Source: Bacillota bacterium
Lineage (GTDB): Bacteria > Bacillota > Sulfobacillia > Sulfobacillales > Sulfobacillaceae
NCBI GenBank assembly: GCA_021784595.1
Contig: JAJYHT010000001.1
Coordinates: 1-43,131 of the forward strand
DNA length: 43,131 nt
Reading direction: 5' to 3'
Part shown: positions 9,689-38,932 of the stretch, in pieces
Layout of the letters: each line of letters starts with the position of its first letter
Position numbering within the stretch: position 1 is the stretch's first letter
The notes under the pieces: model-generated
The model's input: only the letters and a program-made list of their open reading frames with translations
The model's database searches: none
What the model was told of the DNA's origin: nothing
Program-made: the position numbers and the translations under genes

Positions 9689-9702
9689 GAAAACATGTAA
9701 TA

Positions 9703-9863
9703 ATACGCCGAATCCTTAGCCTAGCCTAAGGTACGGGGGATCCCAGAGCTATGCTCTGGGTAGGTGAATCTGACATATTATGTCGGTAGGGGGCTCCTTC
9801 TCCCCCGAACCACGGGCCTGCCCGATACTAACCTCGAAGGCAGTATCAGAAGGAAGGATGTAT
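9703..9863 (+). promoter_or_regulatory. c-di-AMP riboswitch (ydaO-yuaA type)
   Basis: The core matches the ydaO motif in order: CCGAATCC (9708 on), GGTACGGGGGA, GGTGAATC, a variable hairpin, AGGGGGCTCCTT, CCCCCGAACCACGGG, CTAACCTCGAAGGC and a final GAAGGAAGG. This RNA senses cyclic di-AMP and usually turns off cell-wall hydrolase and potassium-transport genes when the ligand is high. The outer stem can pair ATAC (9703-9706) with GTAT (9860-9863), which contains the last base of the ATG at 9858. No terminator hairpin follows. This suggests control at translation start, which is an inference. Confidence 0.9.
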
Positions 9864-22239: not shown

Positions 22240-23283
22240 ATGGCCAAACGTCTAACCCAAATGACCACCAAGTCGGGGTGAGGCTGTAAGCTAGGTCCGG
22301 AGGACCTTGCCGAAGCGTTAAGTTTTTTGGTACCGCCAATAGTTCCCAATTCCCGTGTGCTAGTCGGGAATGAAACACACGATGATGCTGGCGTCTACTT
22401 ATTGGATGACAGTCGCGCACTGGTGCATACGGTAGATTTTCTGACACCGGTGGTGGATGATCCCTATATATACGGTCAAGTTGCGGCGGTTAATTCATTG
22501 TCGGATATTTATGCTATGGGCGCCACGCCTTTGTCAGCCCTCAACTTGCTCGCGGTGCCCGACGGGGTGTTGAGTCCCCAAGTCATTGGCCAAATGTTAA
22601 GAGGCGGCCAATCCATTTTAGAGCTAGCAGAAACGGCTCTCATTGGCGGACATTCCATAGACGACCCGGAGCCGAAAATGGGATATGCGGTGACCGGCAT
22701 TGTGCATCCTGACAAAATATGGCGCAATAGCACCGCGCAGCCTGGGGATCGGTTGTTTTTGTCTAAACCCATCGGCAGTGGCGTCGTGATCAAAGCGATT
22801 AAAGATGGAGATGCCACGGGGGAAATAGCCAACGCTGCGGTGGCCATGATGACCACCTTGAATCGTTATGCTAAAGAGGCCCTAGAGGCCGCATCCACGC
22901 CTACCGCGGTCACCGATGTAACAGGTTTTGGATTATTGGGACATGCCTGGGAAATGGCTTTGGGCGCAGGCGTTGAAATTCACTTGTCCGCGTTGTCAGT
23001 GCCATTGCTGCCGGGAGCATGGGAGTTGGCTCAATCCAACAAATTCCCGGCTGGCAGCCGACGCAACCTGGATTACGTCCGTCCTCATTTGGCCTCCACC
23101 GACATCGAAGAATGGTTTCTTACGCTGTTAACGGACGCTGTCACCTCTGGTGGGTTGTTGTTTACGATAAAAGCAGAGGACGAAGGAGAGGTGCGGCAAA
23201 GTTTTCATGACCGCAACCTCCCTTTGTACGCCATCGGCCATGTAGCATCTGCTCAGGCACCAAAACTAGTCGTTAGCCGATAG
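22240..23283 (+). CDS. selD: Selenide, water dikinase containing selenocysteine (selenophosphate synthase)
   Basis: It makes selenophosphate, the selenium donor for Sec-tRNA, from selenide and ATP. Read through the in-frame UGA at 22279-22281, the protein has 347 aa. The N-terminus MAKRLTQMTTKSG-U-GCKLGP puts Sec14 at the position of catalytic Cys17 in Escherichia coli SelD (GAGCGCK). The ATP-binding Lys follows at position 17. Other motifs: VGNETHDDAGVY, TVDFLTPVVDDPY, GGHSIDDPEPKMGYAVTG, TDVTGFGLLGH. The ATG at 22240 has AAGGAAG 7-8 nt upstream. Without recoding the first usable start lies after the active site and would give a dead enzyme. It overlaps gltX 3' ends by 11 nt. Confidence 0.93.
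22293..22307 (+). promoter_or_regulatory. SECIS-like hairpin of selD
   Basis: AGGTCC-gga-GGACCT forms a perfect 6-bp stem with loop GGA, starting 12 nt after the UGA. The loop begins at +18. Two further G-C pairs extend it past a T-T mismatch. It fits the bacterial SECIS pattern: a short hairpin with G-rich loop 16-37 nt after UGA. Confidence 0.7.
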
Positions 23284-38068: not shown

Positions 38069-38932
38069 GTGCATAACAGATTTTGGGAGTACTTGTCTTC
38101 AGAACCGATAAAATCAACACATTTAGCGAATGGGGGCCGTATAACGGATAAAATTCCTTTGTTGCCGGTTGATCCACAATTGCACGTCGATTTGTGGTAT
38201 GAGGGTCCGACATTTCTGATCGCCGATAAGCCGCAGGAGATGGCTGTCCATCCGACAGGCGACTCAGCGGTCGGAACCTTGGTCAATGGCTTATTACAGG
38301 CCAATCGATGGCTTGCCGAAATGGAGACCAGCCGGTCTCCGGGTGTAATCCATCTCCTTAGACCACAGGACCGCGGACTCACATTAATTGCCAAGAGTGA
38401 CGAGATGGCTGAGCAGTTGCGCCAAAGCCATCAAGAGGGCGCGTTGCGTTTCAGCTACCGGGTGCAGGTGCCATCTTCGCACACGGTGACGCCGTGCAGT
38501 GCGGTAAGCCTCTTTGACTCTCATCCTTATGGAGAAATTACGGTATATGACTTGGATAGTCCTTGGGGAGACACCGCAAGAATTGCTGCCGATTGGTTAG
38601 GTGACCCCAACGCATCAGCCAACTTCATTTGCTATCAAATAACGGTCCCGACTCCCGCCAAATCCTTTCAAATTGGACTGGGGCGTCGGATCCTGCTGCC
38701 GGACATTGATCTCTATACCGCTCCCACGTGAAGCGTCTGCAATGGGACGAAAGAGTTTCTTTTGTCTTATGGATTTGGCTATATTGACCATTCGCTGTCT
38801 GACCGCGCCCATGTCGAACGTATGAAAATCCTGAGCCGCGGGGAGCGTGGCATCCCAGTGATTGTCCTGAACGGAGGGGTTACCATCGCGTTTGACCGTC
38901 ACCGCATTAAAGAGCAGTTAGGCCTGTACTGA
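38069..38932 (+). CDS. Selenoprotein fusion: degenerate RluA-type pseudouridine synthase domain plus U-x-x-C glutaredoxin domain
   Basis: Read through the UGA at 38729-38731, this is one 287-aa protein. Residues about 30-210 resemble RluA-type pseudouridine synthases (LWYEGPTFLIADKP, MAVHPTGD, GTLVNGLL, PGVIHLL...GLTLIAKS), but the HRLDxxTSG active site reads HLLRPQDRG, so the catalytic Asp is Arg98. Residues about 212-287 form a glutaredoxin-like domain: IDLYTAPT-U-SVC with Sec221 and Cys224, cis-Pro263 in RGIPVIV, and FDRHRIKEQLGL at the end. The frame is continuous on both sides of the UGA. Starts are uncertain: GTG 38069, TTG 38093 (GGGAG close by) or TTG 38162. If UGA were a stop, the product would have 220 aa and no redox domain. 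Confidence 0.82.
38746..38766 (+). promoter_or_regulatory. SECIS-like hairpin of the fusion gene
   Basis: GACGAAAG pairs with CTTTTGTC (8 bp with one G-U) around loop AGTTT, at +15 to +35 from the UGA. Two more G-U pairs can extend the base. The loop has GU at +24/+25, the same distance as in the small selenoglutaredoxin. Confidence 0.7.

Follow-up and report, generated by a model that had tools for sequence, protein, structure and literature searches.

The stretch of DNA analysed here, 43,131 nucleotides long and referred to below as the window, is contig C10 of a genome assembly of 3.79 Mb in 101 contigs. It carries a gene in which a domain with the pseudouridine-synthase fold of RluD is joined, across an in-frame UGA, to a glutaredoxin domain, and also a gene for selenophosphate synthase (Table 1). 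The nearest genomes with the fusion gene include a Sulfobacillus benefaciens MAG, and the host is thus a relative of Sulfobacillus. The upstream neighbour of the fusion gene in the window is a cation-efflux gene. A second full copy of the fusion, likewise with a UGA, is encoded in the same genome (C46:84344-85126), and a separate, free-standing UGA glutaredoxin is found on C29. The window also contains a c-di-AMP riboswitch aptamer (9696-9857, + strand; Rfam RF00379, 44.6 bits).

Table 1. Positions of the fusion gene, its parts and related features (window coordinates unless a locus is named)
Feature	Position	Strand	Remarks
selD (selenophosphate synthase), itself a selenoprotein	22240..23283	+	UGA at 22279-22281, KSGUGCK
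Predicted selenoprotein gene, whole	38144..38932	+	putative ACG start, Sec UGA, stop TGA 38930-38932
Probable ACG start	38144..38146	+	weak purine-rich GGGGG 5'; in-frame alternatives TTG 38093 and GTG 38069
RluD-like (pseudouridine-synthase fold) domain	38147..38698	+	catalytic Asp replaced (Arg here), acidic
Glutaredoxin domain, active site U-S-V-C	38699..38929	+	nearest solved relative cGrx1 (7c10, 32% identity)
Predicted Sec codon UGA	38729..38731	+	first position of the UxxC active site
Bacterial SECIS hairpin	38743..38769	+	12 bp, loop GUU at 38755-38757, 23 nt after UGA, -10.8 kcal/mol
Free-standing UGA glutaredoxin directly 5' of a UGA CoA-disulfide-reductase-like gene, sister family	L183:4882-5097, L184:5597-5800		

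Past the TGA at 38729-38731 the same frame stays open for 66 codons, up to the TGA at 38930-38932. An earlier note on this DNA had taken the extension for a glutaredoxin domain, and profile comparison agrees, the C-terminal part scoring 27.5 bits against Pfam PF00462 (cutoff 22.9). The active-site residues Cys/Sec195 and Cys198 and the cis-proline pair Ile236-Pro237 are invariant in the family. In a structure predicted from a 28-row alignment (pLDDT 94.4, pTM 0.90), residues 186-259 superimpose on the glutaredoxin cGrx1 with a Z score of 13.1. The cGrx1 protein of Clostridium oremlandii (OhILAs), which is a selenoprotein in its natural form (ref. 85 of PMC13188914), shares the glutaredoxin fold and the C/UxxC motif with the fusion (32% identity to 7c10; Z 12-13 over 72-74 residues), but is a free-standing protein of 84 residues, whereas here the glutaredoxin makes up the C-terminal third of a larger polypeptide.

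Searches covering 60 relatives, together with named genomes, yielded 29 loci of the fusion, full-length or nearly so. The family is confined to Sulfobacillia apart from two Bacillaceae isolates, the latter family being represented by the three genomes reached, and some relatives lack the fusion. The UGA form occurs in three named isolates, S. harzensis DSM 109850, Terrihalobacillus insolitus and Bacillus pinisoli, and the Cys form in S. thermotolerans Kr1. At the column of the presumed selenocysteine the codon is TGA in 23 loci and TGC in six, with no other codon in any of the 29, which places the UGA at the first Cys position of the CxxC motif, as had been proposed, and led to the rejection of Trp as its reading. 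In the six Cys members the RluD-like part runs into the glutaredoxin in an unbroken frame; homologues that end at the same stop and encode the glutaredoxin in a separate gene, which according to the earlier note would speak against a fusion, were sought and not seen. In almost all pairs, protein identity is no lower after the UGA than before it (82% and 66%, respectively, between the window copy and L006), and the third codon position takes 60-86% of the nucleotide differences after the UGA in pairwise comparison. In a sample of 398 genomes of the phylum, the full-length matches, among the matches listed, all fell in the window's own family, the others listed spanning the first ~115-170 residues, as would be expected of ordinary RluA enzymes. 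A search of plasmids for the fusion gave no match. Several Sulfobacillia genomes encode a conserved protein of ~106 residues, with no NCBIfam match, just 3' of the gene on the same strand (+802..+1120 relative to the gene in L061).

The UGA is followed by a hairpin, in which the earlier note had seen a SECIS-like element at the right distance. Published criteria for bacterial SECIS elements comprise a loop of 3-9 nt with G in one of its first two positions, a distance of 16-37 nt from the UGA and a minimum free energy of -7.5 kcal/mol or lower (PMC13188914), and the window hairpin lies within all of these limits (loop GUU, 23 nt, -10.8 kcal/mol). When the peptide is recoded with synonymous codons, the resulting folds are weaker (p = 0.002). 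Under the codon-shuffle null, p is 0.001-0.05 for most Sec members, values that are not independent of one another because the members are related, and among the Cys members L011 alone reaches 0.05 or below (0.04), with a different fold. Across 21 Sec members 95.2% of the hairpin cells are paired and five cells are changed on both sides, a result reached by none of 500 shuffles; in another two Sec members the hairpin is retained with different bases and a displacement of 1 nt. In the six Cys members the proportion of paired cells is 64.6%, indicating decay. The SECIS assignment is thus upheld by the published limits, by the recoding comparison and by covariation in the Sec members.

Besides selD, the genome encodes an intact selB (C12) and a tRNA-Sec with anticodon UCA (C7). 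The selA gene on C33 (L161:239-1663) scores 541 bits and contains an in-frame TAA at a position occupied by Gln in most relatives and by Ala in two; selA is free of internal stops in all 12 other genomes that have it. The TAA may stem from an error in the sequence or mark a gene lost recently in the strain; unless the former applies, it makes Sec synthesis in this strain uncertain. Absence of selA, selB and selC had been named as grounds for abandoning the selenoprotein reading: selB, tRNA-Sec and selD are in place, and selA is present but carries the in-frame TAA in this assembly. Sec-containing formate dehydrogenases have been reported in Sulfobacillus genomes (PMC4378227). The genome also has a second long tRNA (C1:18026-18117; L046:4029-4118) that scores 51.7 bits, above the tRNA-Sec cutoff, and bears the Cys anticodon GCA; long GCA-anticodon tRNAs resembling it occur in several relatives (L074, L075, L076). 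In a neighbouring genus (G007, G016) UAG was considered as a Sec codon and rejected: the TAG sits 5' of an ordinary Cys glutaredoxin, and the genus lacks selA as well as any selB match above cutoff.

Were the UGA an ordinary stop, the gene would yield a truncated RluD-like product, and the downstream glutaredoxin would be either a remnant or a separately started protein; the TAA in selA and the lack of the fusion in some relatives are in keeping with such termination. Both an ordinary stop and two separate genes were rejected on account of the unbroken Cys homologues and the purifying selection past the UGA. In addition, the covarying hairpin is confined to the Sec members, and no start was found from which a glutaredoxin could be made with both its first strand and its active site, so that termination at this codon is hardly credible. 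Judged from these sequence comparisons, the family is almost certainly UGA-decoded, and a single selenoprotein of about 262 residues is the best explanation of the gene product.

The beginning of the gene was revised. Conservation in the family starts at a column where most members have ATG, GTG or TTG and ten, among them the window copy, have ACG. Where Thr stands in the start column it is encoded by ACG in 10 of 10 cases, compared with 31% of the Thr codons in these genes, and in five of the ten ACG members the stretch from the preceding in-frame stop to the ACG is without an in-frame ATG, GTG or TTG. The simplest reading is that several members start at ACG. For the window copy the GTG at 38069, given earlier as the coding start, probably has to yield to the ACG at 38144, where conservation begins; this start is probable rather than proven because a TTG and the GTG also lie further 5'.

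The N-terminal part had been described as RluA-like, and this is confirmed by the predicted model, in which residues 5-212 match E. coli RluD with a Z score of 15.9 (rmsd 3.1, 177 residues aligned). The profile match to solved synthases covers only residues 10-109, and the scores lie under the family cutoffs, with 22.9 against 26.8 bits for PF00849 (PseudoU_synth_2) and 36.9 against 192.7 bits for TIGR00005. Catalysis in the RluA family depends on the Asp of the HRLDxxTSG motif. The HRLDKDTTG of RluD aligns with H-x-L-[R/M/A/H/E]-x-x-D-R-G in the fusion family, where R, M, A, H or E stands in place of the catalytic Asp in 27 of 28 members, the Terrihalobacillus copy alone having kept it. The domain is acidic in all 28, its net charge ranging from -2 to -15, against a range from -3 to +11 among the ten catalytic RluA-type relatives measured. 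Compared with RluD and the RluA-family 23S rRNA pseudouridine synthases, whose fold it retains, the domain is also shorter (~184 residues, against ~250 in RluD), lacks the S4 domain and is joined to a redoxin. Owing to the loss of the Asp and the acidic character, it is unlikely to work as a pseudouridine synthase; very probably, as far as sequence and predicted fold can tell, it is a dead synthase.

Two other roles for this domain were weighed. It might still be a pseudouridine synthase acting through a displaced Asp (HxLxxxDRG), the glutaredoxin then serving as its redox switch, given that an Asp three positions past the catalytic site is invariant in 28 of 28 members. The alignment with RluD sets this residue at a Thr position, however, and the established dependence on the Asp of the motif, the reduced length and the acidic charge of the domain all make this very unlikely. 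Alternatively, the protein may be a genuine selenoprotein whose N-terminal domain still binds rRNA, tRNA or mRNA, in line with the redox-regulated RNA-binding protein suggested in the earlier note. The RluD fold is clear, Asp75 and Gly77 are invariant and one Bacillaceae member has Asp in the catalytic column, all of which would suit RNA binding. It is disfavoured, and we regard it as unlikely, in view of the almost general loss of the catalytic Asp, a negative charge unlike that of most of the ten catalytic relatives, a profile match to solved synthases that stops after the first ~105 residues, and informative neighbours that are redox rather than RNA genes. The N-terminal domain is therefore probably a protein scaffold and not an RNA-modifying unit. 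The other suggestion of the earlier note, a glutaredoxin with a substrate-recruiting domain, fits better, a linked Sec flavin reductase being the likely electron donor.

This reductase, a CoA-disulfide-reductase-like flavoprotein, is encoded just 5' of the fusion on the same strand in eight loci. In the present genome it lies ~140 nt before the second fusion copy (C46:82860-84206) and contains a UGA of its own (SYSAUSVPYY), followed by a hairpin; such a hairpin follows the UGA in all four Sec copies of the reductase. The linked gene is a full-length relative of CoA-disulfide reductase (TIGR03385), with Sec or Cys in the active site SYSA[U/C]S[VI]PYY, but at 425.8 bits it stays under the equivalog cutoff of 578.8 and is a relative rather than an assigned member, which leaves its substrate unproven. 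Fusion and reductase are matched in state in all eight loci, with Sec in both genes in four and Cys in both in the other four. Since only three Sec/Cys changes fall on the tree, so that the eight loci are not eight independent events, and since two of them (L052, L101) look frame-shifted, the match is supportive and not decisive.

Of 16 order-level genomes with a close reductase 14 have the fusion, as do 9 of the 26 in which no reductase is close (Fisher p = 0.001, uncorrected for kinship); nine Sulfobacillia genomes have the fusion and no close reductase. The two genomes with the reductase and without the fusion (G036 and G037, of a sister family) encode a free-standing UGA glutaredoxin directly 5' of a UGA reductase (Table 1). 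A thioredoxin-like gene terminates a short way 5' of the fusion in Bacillus pinisoli. The window copy is not beside a reductase, and the case for a partnership consequently rests on the paralogue and the relatives; from this gene order it appears reasonably likely that the glutaredoxin of the fusion is partnered with the reductase.

The glutaredoxin half matches the profiles of two described selenoprotein families, with 40.1 bits for NF041212 and 21.5 bits for NF045501, and the fusion might accordingly belong to the UXX-star or HUGP/GUXX-star proteins, the latter also having a fused glutaredoxin-like C-terminal domain. These scores are far under the cutoffs of 66 and 325 bits, and the NF045501 match is confined to the C-terminal segment 169-230 of 236, the N-terminal part of the fusion remaining unmatched. 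Moreover, HUGP/GUXX-star proteins contain two Sec residues according to the catalogue (PMC13188914), as against one here, and membership is a most improbable reading. No carrier of HUGP/GUXX-star was found in the 398-genome phylum sample, in which the control gave no match either, so that absence is not implied. The catalogue, published in 2026 and covering 119 prokaryotic selenoprotein families, lists glutaredoxin and CoA-disulfide reductase separately, together with several glutaredoxin-like families and fusions; it includes the Sec form of CoA-disulfide reductase, and its table does not hold a pairing of this enzyme with a selenoglutaredoxin (PMC13188914). A fusion with an RluA or pseudouridine-synthase domain is absent from its 119 families, and NCBIfam has no model spanning the full fusion protein. 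A literature search, conducted mostly outside subscription journals, found no paper on a pseudouridine-synthase-fold/selenoglutaredoxin fusion. The statement of the earlier note that no selenoprotein with this architecture had been described thus agrees with the most recent catalogue found (PMC13188914), and the fusion is a new selenoprotein architecture. Standard gene prediction would be inclined to render such a gene in two pieces or cut short, owing both to the UGA and to the likely ACG start.

On balance we favour the view that the protein is a Sec-containing thiol carrier of the glutaredoxin type, which would be served by the reductase and would use its dead RluD-like domain as a recruiter. 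Directed by the hairpin (38743-38769), SelB and tRNA-Sec would insert selenocysteine at the UGA (38729). This residue would be the nucleophile of the glutaredoxin UxxC and attack a mixed disulfide or selenosulfide in which a substrate protein or a small thiol is bound, and the second Cys of the motif would resolve the intermediate. An NAD(P)H:FAD disulfide reductase of the CoA-disulfide-reductase type, itself a selenoprotein where it adjoins a Sec copy of the fusion, would then recycle the glutaredoxin. The RluD-like domain, having lost pseudouridylation, may serve as an acidic docking or substrate-selection module.

In the YpdA/bacilliredoxin and glutathione reductase/glutaredoxin pairs, a flavin disulfide reductase and a dedicated redoxin serve one low-molecular-weight thiol. 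The same logic is proposed here, with a thiol that is unproven; unlike in those pairs, both partners contain Sec in several genomes and the redoxin is carried on a dead pseudouridine-synthase fold. The family of the reductase suggests CoA as the thiol of the cycle, an assignment that we hold to be possible rather than probable. Equally tentative is the full relay that can be drawn for the acidophilic Sulfobacillia, in which electrons might pass from a Sec flavin reductase to an ACG-started Sec glutaredoxin on a dead, substrate-selecting synthase fold, in a cycle of a CoA-type thiol (protein de-CoAlation).

The fusion represents a pseudouridine-synthase fold that has been turned into an apparent protein module of a redox enzyme. 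The presence of its second copy beside a Sec flavin disulfide reductase is suggestive of a dedicated thiol redox pair built on selenium, and from the linkage one may propose the reductase by which the redoxin is served in these acidophiles. The linked genes that are matched as Sec with Sec or Cys with Cys make the proposition that partner enzymes co-adopt selenium testable with purified proteins.
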